Positions 2-23,141 of a DNA stretch of 23,141 nucleotides are shown here, one piece after another; within the stretch, counting starts at the first letter, position 1, and each line of letters begins with the position of its first letter. The notes under the pieces were generated by a model, which ran no database searches, was not told where the DNA came from, and worked only from the letters and a program-made list of their open reading frames with translations. This stretch comes from a virus, in the IMG/VR virus record IMGVR_UViG_3300031565_000394, positions 1-23,141 of that record. One strand, given 5' to 3'. The position numbers and the translations under genes were made by a program.

Positions 2-1237
2 TCAGCAGATCTGCAGGCCCAGCTTGAAATCGAAAAGATTAAAGCTCAGAAAGCAGACAACGCGAACAAAGCTCTTATGGATGAAAGTACGCCCTTCATT
101 GATGGCTATCAGTCTGAATTAGAACGATATAACGGTAACGGCCATACTCAGCTTATCGAGCAAGATTTGATTGATTCTGCCGATAGACTTCTTCAAAACC
201 CATTTTTTCCAAATGACCAAAACACACCGATGCCAGCTATACCAGATGGAGCTTGGAAATTTTTTCCACCTTTTTCTGGAAACAAAGGTATTGGTAAGAA
301 TTACAATGAAACTTATACTCCTGTCACTAAAGAGCAAGATCATTTTGATGATATCAATACCCAGATAGCTATAATTGAAGCCCTGGTGGACGCTACGAGA
401 AGTAGTGGAAATGAGTGTGTGGATATTCCACCGGAAATCGTTGGTCCAAGTGTGGTAATGCAACAGGCTGCGATAGACCTTAAAGCCGCTGTACAGGCCT
501 GGGAGGACTTCTTAAACGGTACCGATGCCTCAGTTGTTACCTTCGATATAGACGGTGCTAGGGCTGCTCAAAATACAGCTTCAAAAGCCGATATATCCAA
601 TGCTATCGTAGTGATAGACGCATGGCAACTCTTACAAGATTTTGATACTGTTACCCCTGTTCCAGGTGGTTGTGCTGCATTCGATACTTTTCCAGCAGGT
701 TCTTTTCAGCCAAGTAAATTTCGATCAACTGAACTTCAAGATATTAAAGATGAGATCACAGCTAGACAAGCTTTTATAACAACCAGAGAAAGTGAACTTA
801 ATACAAACTTAGGCACTGTCACTCAAGACTTTAATAATGGTGATATAACAGGTGGTTCTGGTTTCTATCTAAAAAGATTTCGTTTTGTTGATATGAGGCT
901 TAATACTGTTGGCGGAAGTTTAAGTAAACTTCGCGGTATTGAAAGAGGGCAAGATGCTCAGCAACAAATCCAAAACTCAAACGACATTACAGAAGATGCT
1001 TTAGTAGATGTCATGGCTGCGTCAGCTTTCAGAGCACCAGCAACTAATATCAATAGTGTTCATGTTTTAAATGGAAGTTTATTTAGCCCTGGTGATAGTG
1101 CATACGTGGTAGCAAACACACAGGCAGAGATTTCTGTTACTATTCAGTCTATTAGTAATAATCGAATTGTTCTTGACAAAGCCATTCCAGAAAAGTATCG
1201 GCACACTGATGGTGCAAGGCTTTATAAATTACTTTAA
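2..1237 (+). CDS. Virion structural-type protein, 5' end missing
   Basis: The frame is open from position 2, so the first ATG at 77 is probably internal. The 25 codons before it (SADLQAQLEIEKIKAQKADN...) form a charged helix that runs straight into the rest. About 411 residues are visible. Most of the protein is alpha-helical with coiled-coil-like stretches (around residues 1-50 and 240-270 of the visible part). It ends in a small beta module, 'SLFSPGDSAYVV...' to 'ARLYKLL', of the 'pGD ... I ... ip ... lyKl' kind often seen at the ends of phage structural proteins. No signal peptide, membrane segment or enzyme motif is seen. Its stop overlaps the stop of the convergent minus-strand gene by 4 bp, so no terminator fits between them. 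The position upstream of baseplate genes suggests a virion part (inference). I do not recognise the family, and the true length is unknown. Confidence 0.7.
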   Translation, partial: SADLQAQLEIEKIKAQKADNANKALMDESTPFIDGYQSELERYNGNGHTQLIEQDLIDSADRLLQNPFFPNDQNTPMPAIPDGAWKFFPPFSGNKGIGKNYNETYTPVTKEQDHFDDINTQIAIIEALVDATRSSGNECVDIPPEIVGPSVVMQQAAIDLKAAVQAWEDFLNGTDASVVTFDIDGARAAQNTASKADISNAIVVIDAWQLLQDFDTVTPVPGGCAAFDTFPAGSFQPSKFRSTELQDIKDEITARQAFITTRESELNTNLGTVTQDFNNGDITGGSGFYLKRFRFVDMRLNTVGGSLSKLRGIERGQDAQQQIQNSNDITEDALVDVMAASAFRAPATNINSVHVLNGSLFSPGDSAYVVANTQAEISVTIQSISNNRIVLDKAIPEKYRHTDGARLYKLL

Positions 1238-1542
1238 ATAATAAAACATCTTAGATAGTCCATATCTTCTTCAGTGTTTGCGGCCAATTCTTGTGTTACA
1301 TATACTAAATGTTCCTCAACCTTACCATAAGCTTTCTGCATTTCTTTTTCATCAGGATTTTTATTTGTTTCTTTTTTATTGGCTTTGAGTCTTGAGGTCT
1401 GTACTTTCAACATAGCTTTGTATTCTTTATGTAAGTATTCTGAAAAAGCTTGCTTCATTGCATCTTCAGGAATTTCGCTATAGAAGCCCTCTCTATTGAG
1501 CTTTTCCATAATTTCTTCTGCAAGATCTTTTATACTCATCAT
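1234..1542 (-). CDS. Hypothetical helical protein, last gene of minus-strand operon
   Basis: This 102-residue protein is mostly charged alpha helix (Lys/Glu rich), with no membrane segment, signal peptide or cysteine cluster; its single Cys is near the C-terminus (LRCFII). It starts with two adjacent ATG codons. The first (1542) overlaps the stop of the upstream lipoprotein gene as ATGA, and the second (1539) is an equally possible start. There is no good separate ribosome binding site, so translation is probably coupled to the lipoprotein gene. The 3' end overlaps the convergent structural gene by 4 bp. I do not recognise the family. Being last in an operon with a secreted protease-like lipoprotein, it could be a cytoplasmic partner, but nothing in the sequence shows this. 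Confidence 0.72.
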   Translation of the reverse strand: MMSIKDLAEEIMEKLNREGFYSEIPEDAMKQAFSEYLHKEYKAMLKVQTSRLKANKKETNKNPDEKEMQKAYGKVEEHLVYVTQELAANTEEDMDYLRCFII

Positions 1543-2117
1543 AAGCCATATTCTTCGGTATACTTAATTACTTCTTCTTTGTATTCATCGGGATCTGCAA
1601 GCTCAAAAAGTTCATCTATATAATATTCGTAATGCTTATGAATACAAGATTCATCTACAAGTATTGGATGCATATAAGAACCAGGGCATCCATCTGCTAA
1701 TAGGTCGTATTCCTGTATAATACCTAGCTTAAAACTAAGTCTTTCCAACCATCCCCAAAAGTTATCTGAACCTGTTGGTTTGGCGTGATCCCTAAAGAGA
1801 ACGCAGTGACCGAGTTCATGGAATAATAATTCTTCTCTTTCAAATTGACTCTTGCTTCTTAACCACCAACCGCGATCAATAAGAATCTTTTGATGAAAAG
1901 GCATTGGAGCACAAGTACCAGCAGTAACACCTTCTAAGTCTGCAAAGTGGATAGTAACATATTCAAAGTCTTCTTCTTTAACTAAGCCTCTAGATGCATT
2001 TATAAAGTTTTGAACATAGTAATCAAACTCTGGGTCTATTTGATATTCCACATTTTTTAGCTGTGCAGAACTACAGCTTGTGATAAATAAAACTATTACA
2101 ATTAGTATCTTTTTCAT
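1539..2117 (-). CDS. Putative lipoprotein zinc metalloprotease (metzincin-like)
   Basis: The 192-residue product begins MKKILIVIVLFITSC: a Lys-Lys n-region, a hydrophobic core and a lipobox (ITS-C15). It should therefore be exported, lipid-anchored at Cys15 and act outside the cytoplasmic membrane. Residues 100-104 are HELGH, the zinc/catalytic motif, followed by CVLFRDH, so Asp110 or His111 can be the third ligand. Forty residues later SYMHP (Met149) looks like a metzincin Met-turn. The Gly usual in HExxHxxGxxH is Leu here. Bacterial lipoproteins with HELGHC-x-L-x-R-x-H plus an S-x-M turn are a known type, but their substrates are mostly unknown to me. Four Cys in the mature part (69, 105, 144, 158) could form disulfides. 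The start overlaps the upstream gene's stop (TAATG) and the end overlaps the next start (ATGA). A role in envelope processing, superinfection exclusion or lysis is inference. Confidence 0.8.
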   Translation of the reverse strand: MKKILIVIVLFITSCSSAQLKNVEYQIDPEFDYYVQNFINASRGLVKEEDFEYVTIHFADLEGVTAGTCAPMPFHQKILIDRGWWLRSKSQFEREELLFHELGHCVLFRDHAKPTGSDNFWGWLERLSFKLGIIQEYDLLADGCPGSYMHPILVDESCIHKHYEYYIDELFELADPDEYKEEVIKYTEEYGL

Positions 2118-2278
2118 TATCGCCTAATATTCTTTACCATTAAAGCTCTACACTTTGTACAAACGAAATACTTGCCCTTGTCTACAAAATTATGACCTTT
2201 AATACATGACTTATTATAAGCTTTCATAAGAAGTACCATCCCTAATATTAAAAAAAAGTAAGTTGCTATATATTCCAT
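2117..2278 (-). CDS. 53-aa membrane microprotein with Cys/His zinc-type motif
   Basis: This short gene gives a 53-residue protein. Residues 3-21 (YIATYFFLILGMVLLMKAY) form one hydrophobic membrane segment. The rest carries C-x3-H-x10-C-x2-C (CIKGH ... CTKC), a spacing typical of a small zinc-binding knuckle, and it ends in a basic tail (KNIRR). Coding is supported by perfect packing: its ATG overlaps the stop of the 119-aa gene (TAATG at 2278) and its TAA overlaps the ATG of the lipoprotein gene (TAATG at 2117). It thus exactly fills the gap between the two genes in one frame. There is no clear independent ribosome site, so translational coupling is likely. Orientation in the membrane is uncertain, but the basic tail favours a cytoplasmic C-terminus. 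The family is not recognised. Confidence 0.72.
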   Translation of the reverse strand: MEYIATYFFLILGMVLLMKAYNKSCIKGHNFVDKGKYFVCTKCRALMVKNIRR

Positions 2279-2637
2279 TATGGTTTTACGCCCTTATGGT
2301 GTAATTTTGATTTAGTTCTATTTCCACAGCCTTCTTCACGACAAAGCCTATAATAATGAAGACCATCTCTTCTGTGTAAGAATTCCAATTCCATATAGCC
2401 ATCGTCGCACTCAAAACATTTACGCTTGGCTAGTTCTTTTTTCTTCTTCTGTTCTACGTTTTTCTGCTCTTCTCTTTGTTGTTCTACCAGATCTTGAAGT
2501 TGATCAAATTTACTTAAGTCAACCCTGGCCAATATTTTTCTAAGAGCAGCAAGCTGCTTTTTTAACTTCTTATTTTCATATTTAAGTCTATCTAGCTGGT
2601 CATGTTCTCTATCAGTATATTTTGCTCGTTTTGGCAT
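2278..2637 (-). CDS. Coiled-coil and zinc-ribbon phage protein
   Basis: This is a 119-residue basic protein. Residues about 8-70 are a long charged helix with heptad-like leucines (LDRLKYENKKLKKQLAALRK ...), predicted to form a coiled coil. The C-terminal part has CFEC (about residues 74-77) and a second pair C-x4-C (CREEGC), with aromatic and basic residues between, as in a small zinc ribbon. This coiled-coil plus Zn-ribbon layout is familiar from unnamed small proteins of marine and T4-like phages, recognised by pattern only. There is no signal peptide. A good ribosome site (AGGAAGAA) lies just before the ATG, after the 55-aa gene's stop. Its stop overlaps the start of the 53-aa gene. Nucleic-acid or protein binding is plausible, and the function is unknown. 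Confidence 0.78.
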   Translation of the reverse strand: MPKRAKYTDREHDQLDRLKYENKKLKKQLAALRKILARVDLSKFDQLQDLVEQQREEQKNVEQKKKKELAKRKCFECDDGYMELEFLHRRDGLHYYRLCREEGCGNRTKSKLHHKGVKP

Positions 2638-2646
2638 TTATTCTTC

Positions 2647-2814
2647 CTAAATCGCCTTATCGCCCTTTACAATTTTAAAAGTCTTTCTTCTCATCTCTGA
2701 AATTCTTCTGTTTCGGAGCTTGCGCATACGTTGTTTGATGAATCCTGTAATAATTACAATTATAGGTAATAATGTTAGAAAAAGTATTATTTTGCCATTA
2801 AAATCACTCCCCAT
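2647..2814 (-). CDS. 55-aa single-pass membrane protein
   Basis: This short gene gives a 55-residue protein. After a short N-terminus (MGSDFN), residues about 8-26 are strongly hydrophobic (KIILFLTLLPIIVIITGFI). They are followed by a strongly basic tail (KQRMRKLRNRR ... RRKTFKIVKGDKAI). By the positive-inside rule the tail should be cytoplasmic and the N-terminus outside. The start overlaps the 64-aa gene by 11 bp, and the stop lies 9 bp before the next ATG. The clean fit between its neighbours supports it as a real gene. Single-pass proteins of this size and charge occur among phage holins, antiholins and morons, but the sequence alone does not identify which. Confidence 0.7.
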   Translation of the reverse strand: MGSDFNGKIILFLTLLPIIVIITGFIKQRMRKLRNRRISEMRRKTFKIVKGDKAI

Positions 2815-2998
2815 CATTTAATTCTCTCTCAACAATCTCTTTATTATTCTTTCTTTTATAGTCTTTTTTGCTCTTAAAGGCTTTTGTAGGAGGCGGAGTT
2901 GGGATTCTGCCAATGAAAAGCTTCAATGATTCCAAGGCTTTAGCTAAACTATTCTTCTTTTTCTTAGCTTTTCGCTTGCGCTTTGCCATTTTGCCCAT
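2804..2998 (-). CDS. Small basic protein, first gene of minus-strand operon
   Basis: This 64-residue protein is very rich in Lys and Arg at its N-terminus (KRKRKAKKKK). It has a Pro-rich centre (RIPTPPPTKAF) and a second basic patch (KSKKDYKRK) before an acidic end. The pattern 'PTKxxKxKKxYxRK' resembles a motif I associate with many short phage proteins of unknown role (recognition from memory only). The start at 2998 is supported by a strong GGAGG ribosome site (complement of 3003-3007). A second Met three codons in is less well spaced. Being first, it sets the operon's promoter in the divergent region. Nucleic-acid binding is a guess from the charge. Confidence 0.65.
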   Translation of the reverse strand: MGKMAKRKRKAKKKKNSLAKALESLKLFIGRIPTPPPTKAFKSKKDYKRKNNKEIVERELNDGE

Positions 2999-3092
2999 AA
3001 TGCCTCCACATTAAAGATTGCTGAATCCTAATCTTTATAGTATATATACCACTTCCCTTCTATATAAATCTTTTAAATTATAGGTTACCTTA
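2999..3092. promoter_or_regulatory. Divergent intergenic control region
   Basis: These 94 bp separate the start of the minus-strand operon from the start of the plus-strand baseplate block, so promoters for both directions are expected here. Visible elements are AT-rich boxes and a perfect 10-bp palindrome GTATATATAC at 3040-3049. CTATATAAATC near 3060 resembles the T4-type late promoter core TATAAATA with one mismatch. The rightmost part before ATG 3093 has AGGTTACC as a weak ribosome site. No convincing -35/-10 pair was found for either strand, so exact promoters are not assigned. Confidence 0.45.
3012..3037. repeat. Inverted repeat, 8-bp arms (possible operator)
   Basis: TAAAGATT (3012-3019) and its exact complement AATCTTTA (3030-3037) flank a 10-base loop. 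A further AATCTTT sits at 3067-3073. The repeat lies between the minus-strand start and the AT-rich box, a suitable place for a repressor or activator site or a 5' RNA hairpin on the minus-strand transcript. It is short and AT-rich, so chance is possible. Confidence 0.4.
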
Positions 3093-5783
3093 ATGAGCGA
3101 TTATTCACCCAGTCCTTTTCTAAATCAAATCAAAGAAAGAAAACTTGCGATTGATGAGATAAAAGAGGAATTAGCAAAAATCCCAGCACTACCTTGGGAT
3201 GATAATTCAAAATTCTATGGCAAAGAAAATGAAGTATTTTTTGCACCTTTTTTTATTGAACCAGATCGTTGGGATAAATTTTATCCATATAGACTTTTAG
3301 TTGTAGATGTTTCAAATGGCAATCAAATTGTTGGAGTCACAGGTGATTCTTCTACGGTTTATAGTAAATTTACTCAAGAAACAAAAGCAGCAGGTATTGA
3401 ATACGTTATCTATCAAGAAGCTAGACAAAAGATGTGGGAGATGGTATTTCCAATAACACCACAACAACTCCAAATTACAGATCAATTTGCAATAAATACA
3501 ACTGCCACTATGAGAGGTGTGGTAGAAGAGCACAATGGTGTTAAATTTAAAATGATTACTGCCTCTGGAACTACAGGTGTTTGGCCACTAAAACCTACGA
3601 TTGGTGGTAACATTAGCCCAAAAAGCTCTTTTGAAAGTATTTTTTCAGGAGCAATTGAAGGTTTTTCAAGTTTAACAGAACAAGTTAAAAATATTAAAAG
3701 TGCCTGGTCTGGCAAGCATCCAAATAACCCACCTCTATCGGCAAAACCTGGTGAATCCGGTGTTGGCAGTTATGCTTCTACAGGTTATTATCAAGCTCTT
3801 TATTTAGGTCAATTTCTAGAAAGATATGCACAGGCTAAGAAACACCCATCATGGAAAAACTACAGATTAGTTCTAGACATGCCCAAACAAAATCAGACTT
3901 TTGTTGTGACACCGCAACAGTTTAGCCTATCACAAAGTGAACAAAAACCTAATCAATATAATTTTTCAATACAGCTTAAGGCTTGGAAAAGAATTACACT
4001 TAATATAGTACCTACAGCCGCATCCACTGGTTTGCCAAAATTCGGTGACCCTAATAACTGGCAAAAATGGATAAACAGTATTGAGGCAACTAGACAGGCT
4101 TTAGGTGGCGCTACTAATTTTGTTAAAGCAGTTCGCAGTGATTTTCAAGGTGTATTTAATAACTTAAGACAAATAAGTTTAGCCATAAAAGATGCTGGTG
4201 GTTTAGTGTTTTCTATAGCAGACCTTCCTCGACAAATTATTGAAGATTTAACTTCTGCTATTGAAGATAGTGCTGCAAATCTAGCAGCATCAGATGTATT
4301 AAGTTCTCCTACCAGAGCAACTGGTAATTTTGATACAGCTTTTGCTAAACTTGATGATACGCTTAAGGGAGGTAGCAAGGCAGGGTCTGTAACGCAAGGT
4401 ATCAAAAATCAAAGAAAAGTTAATGAAGGTTTATCAAGAGATGCCGTAAAATCTGGTGCTCTAGGTACGGAAGCAGCCCAAAGAACTGAAGTTGACACAT
4501 TGAATAATATTTTTGAAAATCCTGAAGAAAACTTTGATTTTTTTAATACGTTTGATTTGGATGATATCGAACTATCTCCAGAGCAAAGAGTGGCAATTGA
4601 AGATGAAATAGAAAAAACTCAACTTTTGACAGTCAATGATTTTAGAGATATTAAGGCTGATCTACTTAATCTTGCCAATCAAATTGCGGATAATTTCGGT
4701 GCTGGCGATGCTACTTACTCTGCAATTTACGGTCTACCAGACCCTAAAGAAAGAGCCTTGCCTCTTAGTGCTGAAGAAAATGAAATAATGAACTCTATTT
4801 TTGAAGCAATACAAACGATTGATCTTTTGACTGCCACAAAGCAATTTGATGATTTAAACTCAGAAGATCCTTTGGAGTTTGTTGGTGGATTAGCAAATGA
4901 ATCTGGAATTGACTTCTTAAATGCTCCATCTAAACTTGCTGTACCTGTTCCGTTTGGTTCTACAATCGAAGAAATAGCAGGCAGGTATTTACAAGATTCT
5001 AGTAGATGGCTTGAAATTGTTACAATCAATAAACTACGATCTCCATATATTGATGAAGAAGGTTTCTTTTACGACTTCTTATCAAACGCAAGTGGAAGGC
5101 AAATTAATGTAGACGATACAGAAGATAAGCTTTATATAGGCCAATCAATTATACTTCTGTCTAATACAGTGCCAGCTTTTTCTAGAAAAATTACTAACTT
5201 AGAAAAGATTGGTGAAAATAACTTTTTAATAACAGTGGATGGTTTAAATAATCTCAATACCTTAACAACTGCTGATAATGCTAGACTTCAGGCTTATTTG
5301 CCTGGAACAGTAAATAGTCAGAATCAGATTTACATACCTACAGCAGAACCATCAGAAGATGACGATAGAACTTATGAAATTCCTGGCATTAGTGACAACA
5401 AACTTGCAAAACTTTCAAAAGTCGATATATTACTGACAGATAATTTTGATGTTGCAATTAATAGTGTGGGTGATTTTAGACTTGCCAATGGGTTGACTAA
5501 CTTAATCCAAGCATTGAAGCTTAAAATTAGAACACAAAAAGGAAGTATTCTTAGACACTTAAACTATGGTCTTGGCCTAGAACACGGTATTTCAGTAGCT
5601 GATATTGAAAATGGTGCGATAATTAATGAATTAAATAAAATGATTGCAGAAGATAGCAGATTCCAGTCAATTACAAGTATTACGGTTAGACTTTCTGGAT
5701 CTTCTCTTCTTATCGATATGTCAATACAATTGGCCAACCAAACTGGCGTACTGCCTATAAACTTTGACCTGAGAGTTGCATAA
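3093..5783 (+). CDS. Baseplate wedge/hub fusion: N-terminal tail domain, LysM-like, gp25-like
   Basis: This 896-residue protein has at least three parts. Residues about 60-305 hold a tail-type domain with two related signatures: 'FPITPQQLQITDQFAI ... GTTG.WP' (about 120-166) and 'VVTPQQFSLSQS ... Y.FSIQLKAWKRI' (about 270-302). Both resemble baseplate hub or tube-interface proteins. Residues about 315-600 are mostly helical. Residues about 620-690 (PFGSTIEEIAGRYL ... LYIGQSIILLS) fit a LysM-like fold, as in T4 gp53. Residues about 778-896 (DFRLANGLTNLIQALKLKIR ... GSILRHLNYGLGLEHG ...) match the GPW/gp25 wedge family, normally a separate protein of about 120-130 aa. It is the first gene of the baseplate block, 46 bp ahead of the J-like gene, in the order W then J. 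The role as a wedge component joining tube and wedge is inferred from these families. The gp25 part is the surest call. Confidence 0.78.
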   Translation: MSDYSPSPFLNQIKERKLAIDEIKEELAKIPALPWDDNSKFYGKENEVFFAPFFIEPDRWDKFYPYRLLVVDVSNGNQIVGVTGDSSTVYSKFTQETKAAGIEYVIYQEARQKMWEMVFPITPQQLQITDQFAINTTATMRGVVEEHNGVKFKMITASGTTGVWPLKPTIGGNISPKSSFESIFSGAIEGFSSLTEQVKNIKSAWSGKHPNNPPLSAKPGESGVGSYASTGYYQALYLGQFLERYAQAKKHPSWKNYRLVLDMPKQNQTFVVTPQQFSLSQSEQKPNQYNFSIQLKAWKRITLNIVPTAASTGLPKFGDPNNWQKWINSIEATRQALGGATNFVKAVRSDFQGVFNNLRQISLAIKDAGGLVFSIADLPRQIIEDLTSAIEDSAANLAASDVLSSPTRATGNFDTAFAKLDDTLKGGSKAGSVTQGIKNQRKVNEGLSRDAVKSGALGTEAAQRTEVDTLNNIFENPEENFDFFNTFDLDDIELSPEQRVAIEDEIEKTQLLTVNDFRDIKADLLNLANQIADNFGAGDATYSAIYGLPDPKERALPLSAEENEIMNSIFEAIQTIDLLTATKQFDDLNSEDPLEFVGGLANESGIDFLNAPSKLAVPVPFGSTIEEIAGRYLQDSSRWLEIVTINKLRSPYIDEEGFFYDFLSNASGRQINVDDTEDKLYIGQSIILLSNTVPAFSRKITNLEKIGENNFLITVDGLNNLNTLTTADNARLQAYLPGTVNSQNQIYIPTAEPSEDDDRTYEIPGISDNKLAKLSKVDILLTDNFDVAINSVGDFRLANGLTNLIQALKLKIRTQKGSILRHLNYGLGLEHGISVADIENGAIINELNKMIAEDSRFQSITSITVRLSGSSLLIDMSIQLANQTGVLPINFDLRVA

Positions 5784-5829
5784 TATGGTATATATTAGGT
5801 TAGTTGCAATCTTAATGTTGGGAGCATAA

Positions 5830-17176: not shown

Positions 17177-19252
17177 ATGGCAGATATTTCAGTTTTAGCC
17201 AGATTAATAGATGGAGAAGTAAGGAACGTAGAGTTATCCTCTAATAGCCTTGTTTTGCAATCTGTAAAGATAGGTACTTCAGAGCTTACAAAAAATGCTT
17301 TAGATAAACTTGTCTTAACTATAGATTCTGCCACTGCTGTAGATGCAAGTACACTTCATCATCACAATAATAGTTACTATACTAAATCTCAACTTGCCTC
17401 AGTTGTAGACACTATAGCTGGTGCATCTTTAATTGGTGTAGATCAATCTCCAGCCTTTGCAAATATATCTGGAGCAACTGTACAGGCAATCCTTGAATCT
17501 ATTGATACAGCACTTGGTGGTGCTACTGGAATTGTTTGGTCAACACCTGTTGATGCAAGTATTGTTCCAGATACAGCAGACACATATAATTTAGGCAGTG
17601 ATCTTCTACCTTTTACCAATGCATTTGCCAAAGAATTTATAGTAAATGATGGTGCTAGTGTTTTCAGAGGAAAATTAAGTTCTAATATCACCTATACCAA
17701 CTCTATTGTTTTAAATTCAGCTAATGCTCAAGATGTTAGAATTGTTGGTGGTCAAAACTTTAACCAAATAAATGTTGGTTCAGACGTTTATATGTTTGCC
17801 GATGATTTAGATATAAAAGCCACCACCTTTAAAATGTTAAATCCTTCTGTGCCTTCAATTATAGGTCAAGTATGGACCGCATCTGGAGTAGCTGGTGAAG
17901 GTTACTGGACAAATTCAGTACCTGACGGTGCAGATCAACAGCTTTCAAATTTAACTGGTACAGTTGCGATACCTGATGGTGTTGATATACTTGCTTTGAA
18001 TGATAATTCAGTTAACTTAGGTGCTTCAGATAATGTTTTTACCAATGTGTGGGGTTTCAACCTTAATGCACGAGGCTCATTGCAAATTTTCAATAGCGCA
18101 GGTACTGTAGTAGAAGGAGATCTTCTCTATAGTGCTGGTACTGCTTTTCCAAGTGGTGCTTCTGGTGTTAGACTTTCATTACCAGGATTAGCTACTGGTG
18201 ATGCAGTTGGTTTAAGTACTGCAGACAATAGTGTTGCAGATGCTACACCAACAAAAGATATTAGACTTGAAACTGGAAATAAAACTGATGGAACAGGCCG
18301 ATCTGGTAATATTTATTTAGAGCCTGGAACAAGCGATGGTGGTCTTAAGGGTGATATACTCTTAGCTGGTGGAAGTTTAGAACTTGGTCCTTATACAGAT
18401 GGTGGATGGTTTTGGGGAGCAGAGGGTTGGGGATTACATATACCTCAAGGCAATGGTGTAAACCACTTGTCTATGGACACTAAAGATCATGCCTCTGATT
18501 CTACAGATACTCCAGTTAACATTTCAATTCAAACTGGTTACAAACCTGGCAATAGTTCAACTCAAGCAACAGGTTCATTTTATTTGACCACTGGTCAGAA
18601 CGCTGGATCAGGTCAATCAGGATACGTTGGCATTCAAACAGGTGAGACTTTAAATGGTTCCACTGGTCAAAGTGGTGATTTAGATTTATATACAGGTGGT
18701 TCAGTTGGTTCTGGTAATAGTGGATATTTAGCAATTCAATCAGGAAACTCACAAGGTCTTTCTGGTAACACTGGTCCTGCAAATTTTCAATCTGGAAACA
18801 ATACAGCAGCGGCTGGAGATTCTGGACAGGTTTCAATCTTTTCAGGAAATTCAACAAATGGTGATTCTGGTGATCTTCTTTTAAGAGTTGGATCTGCTGG
18901 TGGAACACAAGGTAATATTAAATTATTCAAACAAGGCGTAGCCCCAAGTATCGGTGATGTCTTCACAGCAACTGCAACAGATGGTTCTGGTTATTGGGCT
19001 GCACCTGCAGCCGTTGGCTCAACTAAGGTTGAAACTAGAACTATCACTGCTGGTGAGGCTGGTACTAAATCTTTAGTTTTAGTAGCAACACCGATAACAC
19101 CAGCAGAAGTAACACTTGCAGTGGCTGGAGCGCCAGCCCAGCATTATGGTATCGACTTTACAGTCTCTGGTACCACGTTGACTTGGAATGCTTTAGGTTT
19201 AGATGGAATATTAGATGACACAGATAACTTAACAATATTATACGTAACATAG
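17177..19252 (+). CDS. Tail fibre protein with Gly-rich repeats
   Basis: This is a 691-residue protein. The N-terminal region carries the phage fibre motif HHHNNSYYTKSQL (about 61-73). Around 230-250 is the linker 'GQVWTASGVAGEGYW' followed by 'LSNLTGTVAIP', a module also present in the next two genes. Residues about 360-590 consist of repeats of roughly 18-22 aa of the type 'I.TGn...g.SG.i.l.tG', which should form a long beta-helical or triple-stranded shaft. Another 'GDVFTATATDGSGYWAAP' linker follows. The last about 75 residues (VETRTITAGEAG ... HYGIDFTVSGTTLTWNALGL ... LTILYVT) are a tip domain shared with the 324-aa protein. It starts 1 bp after the previous stop. Its role as a receptor-binding or side fibre is inferred from the motifs. 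Confidence 0.82.
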   Translation: MADISVLARLIDGEVRNVELSSNSLVLQSVKIGTSELTKNALDKLVLTIDSATAVDASTLHHHNNSYYTKSQLASVVDTIAGASLIGVDQSPAFANISGATVQAILESIDTALGGATGIVWSTPVDASIVPDTADTYNLGSDLLPFTNAFAKEFIVNDGASVFRGKLSSNITYTNSIVLNSANAQDVRIVGGQNFNQINVGSDVYMFADDLDIKATTFKMLNPSVPSIIGQVWTASGVAGEGYWTNSVPDGADQQLSNLTGTVAIPDGVDILALNDNSVNLGASDNVFTNVWGFNLNARGSLQIFNSAGTVVEGDLLYSAGTAFPSGASGVRLSLPGLATGDAVGLSTADNSVADATPTKDIRLETGNKTDGTGRSGNIYLEPGTSDGGLKGDILLAGGSLELGPYTDGGWFWGAEGWGLHIPQGNGVNHLSMDTKDHASDSTDTPVNISIQTGYKPGNSSTQATGSFYLTTGQNAGSGQSGYVGIQTGETLNGSTGQSGDLDLYTGGSVGSGNSGYLAIQSGNSQGLSGNTGPANFQSGNNTAAAGDSGQVSIFSGNSTNGDSGDLLLRVGSAGGTQGNIKLFKQGVAPSIGDVFTATATDGSGYWAAPAAVGSTKVETRTITAGEAGTKSLVLVATPITPAEVTLAVAGAPAQHYGIDFTVSGTTLTWNALGLDGILDDTDNLTILYVT
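18256..18940 (+). repeat. Gly/Ser/Thr-rich shaft repeats in 691-aa fibre gene
   Basis: The encoded protein repeats a degenerate unit of about 20 aa, '(I)xTG-(N)-x-(G)-x-SG-x-(I)-x-L-x-(T/S)G', around ten times (for example IQTGYKPGNSS, LTTGQNAGSGQSG, IQTGETLNGS, LYTGGSVGSGNSG, IQSGNSQGLSG, FQSGNN, IFSGNS). Copies are similar in protein and looser in DNA. The same unit recurs in both following fibre genes. Confidence 0.7.
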
Positions 19253-19268
19253 TCTTAAAAGGTAGAAA

Positions 19269-20243
19269 ATGTCACAAATTAAAAAGAAATTCATAGAGAT
19301 CGATGCCGTAGATGGCACAAAGCTTCGTTTAGACAATGACCAATTTGTAAGAGCTAGAAATGCTGCTGATAATGCAGATGTAAATATTCTTAAAGTTACT
19401 GCGAGCGACGAGGTTTTAGTAACAGGTAAAGAATGGTCTGTCGAACAATATGCGGCTGATTGGTGGGGTTCACTTCTAGGCGTTTGGGGCGATCCGTTTT
19501 TAGCAATCGGAACCTTTGGCGGTGGAACAAAAGATCATACACCTGACTCCGCAACGTCCGGTGCCTCGCTTTACACGCAAACAGGTTCGGCTTTGGGCGC
19601 AGCGGCAACTGGCAGCACAGGTCAAATATTTTTTCACTCAGGCGATACCTATGGAACCGCTGGTAGCACTGGCGGCATTGGATTTGAAACCGGAACTATT
19701 CTTGGTGCGACCAATAATTCAAGTTCAGGTAATTTTCAGTTTATTACCGGAAGTTCAAAAGGCGGCAACGTAGGAGGCTTTACGTTTAACCCTGGAACCG
19801 CTTTAACTGGCGGCTCGGAAGCGGTTTCACTTAGAACCGGAAATTCTTCGGGCAGCGGAACAACAGGCGGAATACTATTACAAATAGGCTCGACAAGCGG
19901 AACCCAAGGCGACTTTACCTTCCGCAAGACTGGCGTTGCAAATACCGTAGGCGATGTTTGGACAGCCACTTCGGTTAATGGGCAAGGTTATTGGAGTGCG
20001 CTTCCAGTTCCTGGTGCTGATCAATTCAATAAAGAAAGTATTACATTAATTGCTGGTGATATTACTGCTGGTAACGTAACACTTGCTCAAACACCGATTG
20101 CTAATACAACTGATTTAGTTGTAAGTGGACTTGTTTCTACTGAAGGCGTTGACTATACAGTAACTGGTGCTGTTTTAGATTTTTCAACACACATACCTGC
20201 TTTAATTGCTGGTGACATTATTAATGTTAAGTATAGATACTAA
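19269..20243 (+). CDS. Short tail fibre protein with foreign-looking centre
   Basis: This is a 324-residue protein. The N-terminus (KLRLDNDQFVRARNAADNAD, 17-36) is a fibre module shared with the next gene, including 30 identical bases. The centre (about 100-235) has the same Gly-rich 'TG...SG' repeats as its neighbours. The linker 'GTQGDFTFRKTGVANTVGDV' leads to 'QGYWSALPVPGADQ', and the last about 70 residues (ESITLIAGDITAGNVTLAQT ... EGVDYTVTG ... IINVKYRY) match the tip of the 691-aa protein. Codons in the middle (about 19395-20010) prefer GGC, ACC, GCG and TCG, unlike both ends and both neighbours, suggesting a swapped module. AAAAGG before the ATG is the ribosome site. Probably an alternative or second receptor-binding fibre. 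Confidence 0.8.
   Translation: MSQIKKKFIEIDAVDGTKLRLDNDQFVRARNAADNADVNILKVTASDEVLVTGKEWSVEQYAADWWGSLLGVWGDPFLAIGTFGGGTKDHTPDSATSGASLYTQTGSALGAAATGSTGQIFFHSGDTYGTAGSTGGIGFETGTILGATNNSSSGNFQFITGSSKGGNVGGFTFNPGTALTGGSEAVSLRTGNSSGSGTTGGILLQIGSTSGTQGDFTFRKTGVANTVGDVWTATSVNGQGYWSALPVPGADQFNKESITLIAGDITAGNVTLAQTPIANTTDLVVSGLVSTEGVDYTVTGAVLDFSTHIPALIAGDIINVKYRY
19352..19381 (+). repeat. 30-bp N-terminal module repeat, copy 1
   Basis: This is identical over 30 bases to 20341-20370 and encodes the ARNAADNADV part of the fibre N-terminal module. It lies just upstream of the atypical segment, so it could be a recombination junction. Confidence 0.7.
19395..20010 (+). other. Segment of atypical GC content and codon use inside fibre gene
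   Basis: Hand counts give 37/60 GC at 19561-19620 and 32/60 at 19801-19860, against 23/60 at 20041-20100 and 25/60 at 18721-18780. Glycine codons here are often GGC, and ACC, GCG, TCG and CCG are frequent. The same protein repeat in the neighbouring genes uses GGT/GGA, ACT/ACA and TCT. Edges are approximate. Confidence 0.7.
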
Positions 20244-20254
20244 GGAATAATAAC

Positions 20255-23141
20255 ATGAGTAGAATTTTAGATTCCAGATTTTTAGCTCCAAATTCCATCA
20301 CAGGTGCAGACCTTCGTCTGGATAACGATCAATATCTAAAAGCTAGAAATGCTGCTGATAATGCAGATGTTAATGTTATAAAAGTTGACGCATTCGATAG
20401 AACAATATTAAATGCTGCATCTGGACAATCTATTTTATTTGAAAAAAGTTTCCTTCCAGCATTGGACAATACTTATTCGTCTGGACTCGTAACTGTATCA
20501 TGGTCAGATGTTGCTAGTAGAAAATTTAGTTTGGCTGAAGGTGCATCTGTAGGTGAAATTAATCCAAATGCGACCTCACCAAGTGGTGCTACAAATTCTG
20601 TTTCGTTTTTAACAACTGGCACTAAAGATCTTTCAATCTTTACAGCTAATAGTGCAGTAGCCGATGCTGCTGCAACTAAACCGATACGAATTGAAACTGG
20701 AAATAAATCTGCTGGTACTGGTGCCACTGGTGCTGCATATCTCGTTACTGGAAACTCTGTAGGCGGAAATTCTGGTGGTCTTACTTTAAAAACTGGTACT
20801 GCTGCCACAACTAGAGGTGATATCGATATAGATGGTCGCTTAATAAATTTAAGACCTTCAGCAAGCGTACAGTCTTATGGTGCTATCGTTCCAGATGCAC
20901 CAAATACTAGAAATCTTGGTGCTGGTGGACTCTCTTGGAATCTTATCTATGGTAACTTTTTCTTTGGACAGGGAGCACTAACGTATTACGGCTCTAATTT
21001 TAATACAGCAGGTGCTATTACTGTTCAGACTGGTGATAGTAATACTGCCGCAAATACAGCCGATGCCACAGTCCAGTCCGGTGACCAAATAAATGTTGGT
21101 TCAGGAACAGTAGGTGATCTGATTTTAAAGTCGGGTTCTGTTATTGAACCAACTAATAATAATAACAGTGGTGATGTAAGTATATCAACTGGAACTACTG
21201 CTGGCTCTGGTATTCGTGGAAACATTGTTTTGAACGGCAACACTTTAGATGTTCTGAATGCACCACTAGGTAACAACTTGGCATTAAGAGGTAAAAATAC
21301 TACTGGTACTGCCTTAAACCTTATCAAGGTAAATGCTGTTGATCGTATTGAAGTTGGTAACGGAAATAACATGGTATTAAATGCTGCCAATGTTCTTCCA
21401 AATGTTACTGGTTCAAATATGGGTGCTGCTGGTAATCTTTGGGATATTTATGTAAATAGTGTACAAACTCCTTTGATATGGGAGGCGAACAATGCGTCTG
21501 TAAGAACACAAGATAATACAGTCACTAACCCTATGAGTGTACTTACAGGAGCCTCATCTGCTGGTGACTCTGGAGATATAACTATTCGCTCTGGTATAGC
21601 AACAGGTGGAGATAGCGGTGATATTCTTTTACAAGTTGGATCGGCCACAGGTACACAAGGTGTAATTAGGTTAGTTGATGGTTCACTTGGTGCAGCATCG
21701 GTTGGATATGTTTGGACATTAAATAATATTACAACAGGTGAAGGAAACTGGGCTGCTGCTGGTGGTGGCGGTGGTGCAACTACAGCTCTTGATAACCTTG
21801 CAGCGACAGCCGTAAACGCTGACATTAGTCCTTTGAACACAGCAGCTAACATAGATCTTGGATCGCCAACAAAAAGGTGGGCAGAAGTTCATGTGTCTAC
21901 TCTTTATGTGAGAGATATTTTTCAGGCCACTCTAGGAAGTACGCCGTTAGATATTCAAACAGTTGCAAGCACACAGACTGGTAACATCGACTTACAATCA
22001 GGCAATAGCTCGGCAGGGACTTCAGGTGCAGTAATATTAAATTCTGGTAGTGCCGTAGGTGGTAACTCTGGAGGTATTCAATTATTGGTTGGTACATCAA
22101 CAGCCACGCAAGGCGAGATAGCTTTTTTAAAAAATGGCGACACTACAACTATAGGTCACGTTTGGACAGCCACTGGAACAGCAGGTGAAGGCTACTGGGC
22201 GGCTGCTGCTGCAGGTGGAGCGAATACCGCTCTTTCAAATCTTACAGCCACAGCAATCAATTTAGATTTAGATCCTGCATCTGGAAACGCTACAGACCTT
22301 GGTAATACAACCAACTACTGGAGAAATGGATTTATTAACAGAATTGATTTAGTGAATGGCGGTACTGCTTGGCACCGAATACGATCAACAGTAAGCGGCC
22401 TGCCTTCTGGAGGAAGCTCTGATTTAGCTTTTATTGGACTAAGTAAATCATTAGGGTTTTGGACAAACAATGAGTCAGCGGCTAGTACAAATAGCCCAGG
22501 TGTGTTCATTGAAACTGGAAACGCGGCTGGGGTTACATCTAACTCTGGTGACATTAGTATTCAAACTGGAACTGCAACACAAACACGCGGTTCAATTGTA
22601 TTAAATGCAAACAGTCTAGACCTTACAAATGCACCTATTGGTTCAAACATTCTTCCAGATGCTAACGCAACAAGAAACTTAGGTGCAACTGGAACTAGAT
22701 TTAATTTCATGTTTGGAACAGCAGCATTTGTTGGTTCTGGTGCAGGAAATGGACATCGAATGGTTGGTTCTGAAACTCTTCCAAGCGGTGCAACTACTGT
22801 TGCTGGTCATAGATCAGAAGCGGCACAACATTTAGGTCTTTATACAATAGATCAAGCTGCTACTAAAAATGTTTATGTAGAATCTGGTAACGCATCGGGC
22901 GGAAATTCTGGTGATATTGCTTTACAAACTGGAACAGCTACCGGAACTAGAGGTTCAATTGTATTAAATGCAAACAGTCTAGACCTTACAAATGCACCTA
23001 TTGGTTCAAACATTCTTCCAAACGTCACAAATACTTATGATTTAGGTAGTAGCTCTAGTTTATTCTGGAAAGTTCTTTATGCAAATGATGTTAGGTCGCC
23101 ACAAATTAGGGTAACTGATGCGGTTGATTCTCCAGCTAATC
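20255..23141 (+). CDS. Large modular tail fibre protein, 3' end beyond window
   Basis: The frame is open from ATG 20255 (ribosome site AAGGA, 11 bp after the previous stop) to the right edge, giving 962 codons without a stop. The N-terminus (ADLRLDNDQYLKARNAADNA) repeats the module of the 324-aa protein. A diverged copy lies inside (about residue 345, LALRGKNTTGTALNLIKVNA). The body alternates three modules. The first is Gly-rich units (for example IETGNKSAGTGATG, IRSGIATGGDSGDILLQVG, LQSGNSSAGTSG, VESGNASGGNSGDIALQTGT). The second is linkers such as 'GHVWTATGTAGEGYW' followed by 'ALSNLTATAINLDLDP'. The third is 'ilPd...tr.LGa.g..f...y' units (for example ILPNVTNTYDLGSSSSLFWK). All are typical of long phage fibres. 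The C-terminal receptor or tip part is not in view. A 69-bp perfect direct repeat lies near the right end. Confidence 0.85.
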   Translation, partial: MSRILDSRFLAPNSITGADLRLDNDQYLKARNAADNADVNVIKVDAFDRTILNAASGQSILFEKSFLPALDNTYSSGLVTVSWSDVASRKFSLAEGASVGEINPNATSPSGATNSVSFLTTGTKDLSIFTANSAVADAAATKPIRIETGNKSAGTGATGAAYLVTGNSVGGNSGGLTLKTGTAATTRGDIDIDGRLINLRPSASVQSYGAIVPDAPNTRNLGAGGLSWNLIYGNFFFGQGALTYYGSNFNTAGAITVQTGDSNTAANTADATVQSGDQINVGSGTVGDLILKSGSVIEPTNNNNSGDVSISTGTTAGSGIRGNIVLNGNTLDVLNAPLGNNLALRGKNTTGTALNLIKVNAVDRIEVGNGNNMVLNAANVLPNVTGSNMGAAGNLWDIYVNSVQTPLIWEANNASVRTQDNTVTNPMSVLTGASSAGDSGDITIRSGIATGGDSGDILLQVGSATGTQGVIRLVDGSLGAASVGYVWTLNNITTGEGNWAAAGGGGGATTALDNLAATAVNADISPLNTAANIDLGSPTKRWAEVHVSTLYVRDIFQATLGSTPLDIQTVASTQTGNIDLQSGNSSAGTSGAVILNSGSAVGGNSGGIQLLVGTSTATQGEIAFLKNGDTTTIGHVWTATGTAGEGYWAAAAAGGANTALSNLTATAINLDLDPASGNATDLGNTTNYWRNGFINRIDLVNGGTAWHRIRSTVSGLPSGGSSDLAFIGLSKSLGFWTNNESAASTNSPGVFIETGNAAGVTSNSGDISIQTGTATQTRGSIVLNANSLDLTNAPIGSNILPDANATRNLGATGTRFNFMFGTAAFVGSGAGNGHRMVGSETLPSGATTVAGHRSEAAQHLGLYTIDQAATKNVYVESGNASGGNSGDIALQTGTATGTRGSIVLNANSLDLTNAPIGSNILPNVTNTYDLGSSSSLFWKVLYANDVRSPQIRVTDAVDSPAN
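20341..20370 (+). repeat. 30-bp N-terminal module repeat, copy 2
   Basis: This is the second exact copy of the 30-base segment at 19352-19381, in the same frame near the start of the last fibre gene. Confidence 0.7.
22589..22657 (+). repeat. 69-bp perfect direct repeat, copy 1
   Basis: This is identical over 69 bases to 22952-23020, 363 bp (121 codons) downstream in frame. It encodes GSIVLNANSLDLTNAPIGSN and the following ILP. A diverged third relative is near 21219-21276 (NIVLNGNTLDVLNAPLGNN). Such a repeat lets the gene lose or gain a 121-codon unit in frame. Confidence 0.85.
22952..23020 (+). repeat. 69-bp perfect direct repeat, copy 2
   Basis: This is the second copy of the repeat at 22589-22657, preceded and followed by diverged sequence. 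It lies in the same reading frame of the last fibre gene. Confidence 0.85.

Follow-up and report, generated by a model that had tools for sequence, protein, structure and literature searches.

Among described phage systems, T5 Llp is an outer-membrane lipoprotein that is encoded beside the receptor-binding gene and that blocks the receptor without proteolysis (PMC9586334). Llp and T1-type Cor resemble the protein at the centre of this study, P2, in that they are phage outer-membrane lipoproteins encoded beside tail or adsorption genes (PMC9586334), but both are small binding proteins that lack an enzymatic domain, whereas P2 has a full protease active site, lies antisense and is often part of a multi-gene operon. 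Two-component spanins (Rz/Rz1) share with the P2 locus the pairing of a lipoprotein with small single-transmembrane proteins, apparently made with the virion genes; by comparison P2 is enzyme-sized, and in the transmembrane proteins of its locus the N-termini are short and the basic tails are predicted to lie in the cytoplasm, with no periplasmic coiled coils. The PF18894/SprT-like zincins are similar to P2 in their catalytic site, but differ in that P2 is a lipoprotein predicted to be exported, has conserved cysteines and carries an S-x-M motif further downstream. Within the literature available, a search on phage Mx1, phage-encoded metalloproteases and lipoprotein protease spanins returned nothing relevant.

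The window, i.e. the whole stretch of DNA analysed, is a virus fragment of ~23 kb (23,141 nt, positions 1 to 23,141 of IMG/VR record IMGVR_UViG_3300031565_000394). As described in the initial annotation, six co-oriented minus-strand ORFs (1234-2998) are present between two plus-strand genes of the virion block, U and the baseplate gene B (Table 1). B matches PHROG 975/184 and shares 30% identity with a protein of Myxococcus phage Mx1 that acts in baseplate assembly; most ingroup loci have a homologue of U in the corresponding position. The joints between the six ORFs are as annotated with respect to the 9-bp gap (P5/P4), the two TAATG overlaps (P4/P3 and P3/P2) and the ATGA overlap (P2/P1), but the 11-bp P6/P5 overlap holds only when counted from the second ATG, being 14 bp from the first. 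P1 overlaps the stop of the convergent U by 4 bp. Further along the window, three plus-strand tail genes that follow one another (17177-23140) have similar N-termini and common SGNSGGxxLQTG-type repeats, as in a duplicated fibre-gene family.

Table 1. Genes and promoter-like motifs of the cassette and its flanks (window coordinates)
Feature	Position	Strand	Description
U	77..1237	+	386-aa virion-block protein; left-hand boundary of the slot; context, outside the operon
P1	1234..1542	-	102-aa all-helical protein; last gene, convergent with plus-strand U
P2	1539..2117	-	192-aa predicted lipoprotein zinc metallopeptidase; core gene of the locus
P3	2117..2278	-	53-aa single-TM microprotein with a C-H-C-C zinc knuckle
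P4	2278..2637	-	119 aa; coiled coil, then C4 zinc ribbon (CxxC ... C ... C); in the variable position of the cassette
P5	2647..2817	-	56-aa single-TM microprotein
P6	2804..2998	-	64-aa basic protein; first gene of the cassette
AATCTTTA motif	3012..3019	-	just upstream of P6; same motif before virion genes in relatives
AATCTTTA motif	3030..3037	+	of the divergent baseplate gene; forms an apparent palindrome with 3012-3019
TGGTATATAT	3042..3051	-	extended -10-like promoter motif of the cassette
B	3093..5783	+	896-aa baseplate protein; right-hand boundary of the slot; context, outside the operon

On comparative evidence the six ORFs are genuine genes rather than chance ORFs, because locus L002, the baseplate protein of which is ~62% identical to that of the window, retains five of them (32-52% identity) at the corresponding site and in unchanged order. 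L002, L003 and many further loci were found by searches based on B. For P1, P3, P4, P5 and P6, dN is well below dS in the window/L002 pair, in which synonymous sites are near or at saturation; for P2, a closer pair (L025/L043) gives a dN/dS of 0.12.

The P2 sequence has a signal peptide, a lipobox (ITSC), HELGHCVLFRDH and a DGCPGSYMHP segment. Across 24 homologues H100, E101, H104, H111, C144, S147, M149 and C158 are invariant, and the lipobox cysteine is present in at least 90%. The structural model is confident (mean pLDDT 87) and zincin-like, its best PDB fold match being the SprT/Spartan-type protease 6mdx (E 7e-3, with none in the PDB below 1e-3) and its best viral match having an E value of 3e-7; together with the invariant HExxH, these fold matches place P2 among the zincins. 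PF18894 (PhageMetallopep) is matched by 17 of the 24 homologues (best 3.5e-6) and SprT-like by 8, whereas the window protein itself has no match to PF18894 at E <= 1 and the L003 member reaches 14.7 bits against a cut-off of 23.7. P2 is thus best described as a predicted zincin-fold lipoprotein near PF18894/SprT, the link being weak for the window protein. Classification as a metzincin was rejected: the H-x3-H-x6-H arrangement is without the glycine, S-x-M lies downstream and the best PDB fold is SprT/Spartan.

The exported lipoprotein protease of the initial annotation is upheld at the level of prediction by the signal peptide, the lipobox, the invariant zinc-site residues and the model. Because the lipobox is followed by Ser at +2, in addition to the signal peptide, we infer that P2 undergoes export and lipidation and ends up in the outer membrane; its conserved cysteine pairs are typical of an oxidising compartment. 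That P2 is instead a virion-maturation or tail-associated protease, as its position next to a baseplate gene and its sharing of that gene's promoter motif might suggest, is very unlikely, given that export is implied by the signal peptide, the lipobox and the cysteines conserved in P2, which moreover is antisense and dispensable at this site.

Profiles of all six proteins, run over the loci, were used to map the content of the slot between U and B. The cassette is on the minus strand in every case, with the order P6-P5-(variable)-P3-P2-P1, so the linkage envisaged in the initial annotation for one operon-like unit does recur in related phages. The variable position holds P4 in the window, L002 and L017, a gene that we take, from sequence features, to be a PhoH-like PIN+ATPase in L006-L010, L016, L027, L034 and L051, or another gene (L018), or is empty; most relatives have another gene or none where P4 would be, and in others P4 stands elsewhere in the genome. 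Of 30 dereplicated ingroup loci with a visible slot, 25 have P2 adjoining B; P2 is missing from the cassette in L002, L006-L008 and L034. An alignment-based P2 scan of viral contigs added six loci with P2 between U and B (L137-L142), and one, L143, with B and P2 and no match to U. A scan with a single P2 sequence returned no match in viral contigs, nor did tblastn of P2 against GenBank phage records. The corresponding P6 scan gave no cassette beyond those already known, all 21 P6 homologues in the loci lying inside this cassette, and the P4 scan returned L002 alone; the P1 alignment is too diverged for scanning. As further observations on the slot, an HNH-like gene lies between P6 and the baseplate gene in L006 (9151-9804) and in the near-identical L005, L007 and L008, and L032 (9556-9915) and L033 (8059-8424) have a minus-strand gene of 119-121 aa between P2 and the baseplate gene, where P6-P5 would stand.

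In the baseplate tree, basal ingroup loci carry P2 alone, P6-P5-P3 and P1 appear in the crown, and no cassette genes occur in Mx1 or on its side of the tree. P2 is the oldest and most faithfully kept part of an operon that was built up stepwise. A single, fixed, interlocked six-gene module, as first proposed, does not fit this pattern: the content is modular, and relatives of both P4 and P2 are also found elsewhere in related genomes.

At least one P2-family copy is present in each of the 16 clade records searched, some of which may be incomplete, and in none of four outgroup records nor in phage Mx1. In G001, G002 and G009, the cassette of which is without P2, a diverged P2-family copy stands elsewhere; in the P2 tree the copies outside the cassette fall apart from the cassette copies, with weak support. 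G001 encodes two such off-cassette lipoproteins (L060 1440-1949 and L059 8965-9378), one of them followed by another lipoprotein-like gene. One member of the tree, L097, resembles a cytosolic SprT-like protein and is not included in the count of cassette-type P2. A Deltaproteobacteria MAG (G021) includes two phage contigs with P2 in the matching place, and lipoprotein homologues of P2 are encoded in genomes of that class. Such bacterial lipoproteins (L101, L103 and L106) share with P2 a signal peptide, a lipobox-like cysteine, HELGHC and a downstream IMS motif, but are cellular and have a shorter C-terminal part (match to the P2 profile, 1e-9 to 1e-18). The MAG contigs, together with Mx1, suggest where the host range of these phages lies.

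These homologues in bacterial genomes, the occurrence of P2 relatives and P4 away from the slot, and its mosaic content of PhoH-like, Zn-ribbon and endonuclease-like genes would also be expected if the slot were an accessory hotspot, in which unrelated host-specific genes with no joint function gather at a tolerated site by a divergent promoter. We consider this explanation unlikely, since P6-P5, P3 and P1 keep their order throughout the crown and are under purifying selection there, and the clade as a whole has held on to a P2 relative.

The proteins encoded with P2 are less readily placed. The initial annotation had listed, in addition to the lipoprotein, two single-pass membrane microproteins, a Zn-ribbon coiled coil and a basic protein, all of which are borne out by the predicted features (Table 1), and its view that the cassette matches no known system is likewise upheld. 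P1 and P3-P6 have no convincing family among the matches listed for Pfam and PHROG. P6 has a conserved KSKKDYNRK-like C-terminal motif, with R31, Y47, R49 and K53 invariant. P5 has a C-terminal RRKxFKxVKG motif, and in P3 the invariant C25, H29, C40 and C43 form the zinc knuckle in the predicted cytoplasmic tail. Both P5 and P3 have short N-termini and basic tails assigned to the cytoplasm by the positive-inside rule, i.e. on charge only. P1 has a conserved Y-S-E motif and a confident model (pLDDT 90), for which the fold search gave no match with E <= 0.001. Several candidate identities were tried and set aside. The cysteine spacing of P4 suggested an Ogr/Delta late activator (PF04606), but the L002 homologue matches with E 0.76 over 12 positions, below the cut-off, and the window P4 gives no match at E <= 1; a match of P4 to a spanin (phrog_214, E 0.063) covers the coiled coil only, and P4 has no TM segment. 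The idea that the basic motif of P6 is ribosome-rescue-like found no match among solved structures.

Evidence on expression comes from promoter-like motifs. Upstream of genes in two long relatives, AATCTTTA was observed 8 times against 0.5 expected and 11 times against 0.7, and relatives have it before a number of virion genes, namely baseplate, tape-measure-like, fibre and tail genes. In one of the two long relatives TTGTGGTA-type sites are also strongly enriched upstream of genes, there preceding small unknown genes and homing endonucleases. By comparison with shuffles, AATCTT[TA] is present in the cassette leader in 13 of 28 loci (1.9 expected) and before B in 28 of 31 (2.7 expected), and the extended -10-like motif in the cassette leader in 18 of 28 (3.3 expected). 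Upstream of the baseplate J-like gene of the window (5786-5829), TGGTATATAT and CAATCTTAA form the same motif pair as in the cassette leader. Because both leader motifs are common to virion genes, including the next baseplate gene, the cassette is probably expressed together with the virion genes. We did not adopt a scheme in which one motif is strictly early and the other strictly late, as both stand before the J gene. Two other proposals also failed: the leader folds no better than shuffles (z 0.13), the palindrome consisting of two divergent AATCTTTA motifs rather than an RNA hairpin, and a T4-type TATAAAT late promoter is rare in upstream regions.

The extended -10-like motif is present also in cassettes where AATCTTTA is missing. 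From such a promoter P2 could be made soon after infection and destroy the receptor, i.e. an early superinfection exclusion that is Llp-like in purpose, for which T5 Llp provides a precedent (PMC9586334). The same kind of motif before the J gene, however, means that it is no marker of early genes, and AATCTTTA is common to virion genes and many cassettes; early exclusion is thus distinctly unlikely.

A role in lysis fits almost as well as the explanation that we favour. In this case P2 would cleave periplasmic envelope-linking proteins, replacing or assisting spanins, with P5 or P3 being holin-like; the predicted outer-membrane lipoprotein and the single-TM proteins share motifs with virion genes, and no spanin family is among the matches listed for G001, in a scan covering genes of 75 aa and above. 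The topology predicted from charge is, however, opposite to that of an i-spanin, the lipoprotein has 192 residues with a protease domain, and many relatives have a cassette P2 without a TM partner. There is no endolysin in the cassette of the window and, because that of G001 (phrog_465) stands alone ~90 kb away, the cassette is not the main lysis cassette; by definition the set makes up neither a spanin pair nor a complete lysis cassette. Other TM genes of G001 (51991-54312) are lysis candidates as well. A lysis helper is, on balance, an unlikely assignment. Separately, L058 12377-13257 (G001 52377-53257) and L068 5924-6464 (G003 85924-86464) encode conserved small membrane proteins that are possible lysis/holin candidates, being 80/81 aa with two hydrophobic stretches and 101/94 aa with one TM.

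The explanation that we favour, albeit tentatively, is that of a modular antisense accessory operon in the tail block, arranged around an exported zinc protease, P2, that would trim proteins on the surface or in the envelope of the cell under infection. P2, made together with the virion proteins and anchored in the outer membrane, would cleave outer-membrane or surface proteins; at the end of infection such trimming of receptors or envelope may prevent progeny from being re-adsorbed to the dying cell or debris and exclude competitors; a weaker envelope at exit may be a further, minor gain. For such a purpose T5 Llp is a precedent (PMC9586334). In the inner membrane, P5 and P3 would expose their tails, basic or zinc-binding, to the cytoplasm, while P6 is a soluble basic protein; P6, P5, P3 and P1 are later additions on the same transcript and may act on another step. 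The envelope-acting module of the initial annotation is thus retained with respect to the exported P2, but not for the microproteins, which, with basic tails predicted to be cytoplasmic, need not work with P2 in the periplasm. Sequence does not separate the roles that it had offered, namely lysis, superinfection exclusion and adsorption control.

Somewhat more doubtful is the specific proposal that a dedicated outer-membrane zinc protease, made with the virion, removes receptors or loosens the envelope at exit, i.e. that exclusion or anti-readsorption is enzymatic rather than a matter of receptor blocking. Against the favoured explanation it can be said that known superinfection-exclusion lipoproteins bind receptors and are no proteases, that late timing is judged from motifs shared with virion genes, and that the L021/L025/L030/L043 subclade has no AATCTTTA close to the cassette start. 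Lineages without a cassette P2 that keep another P2-family copy elsewhere would provide a natural experiment.

Accessory operons of phages that include an envelope protein are of a familiar kind; enzymatic exclusion would be a new variant compared with receptor-blocking lipoproteins. If the favoured explanation is right, an exported protease is conserved as an almost constant accessory in a large, mostly uncultured group of phages distantly related to Mx1, which would point to a proteolytic envelope-control step absent from the known lipoprotein and spanin systems.
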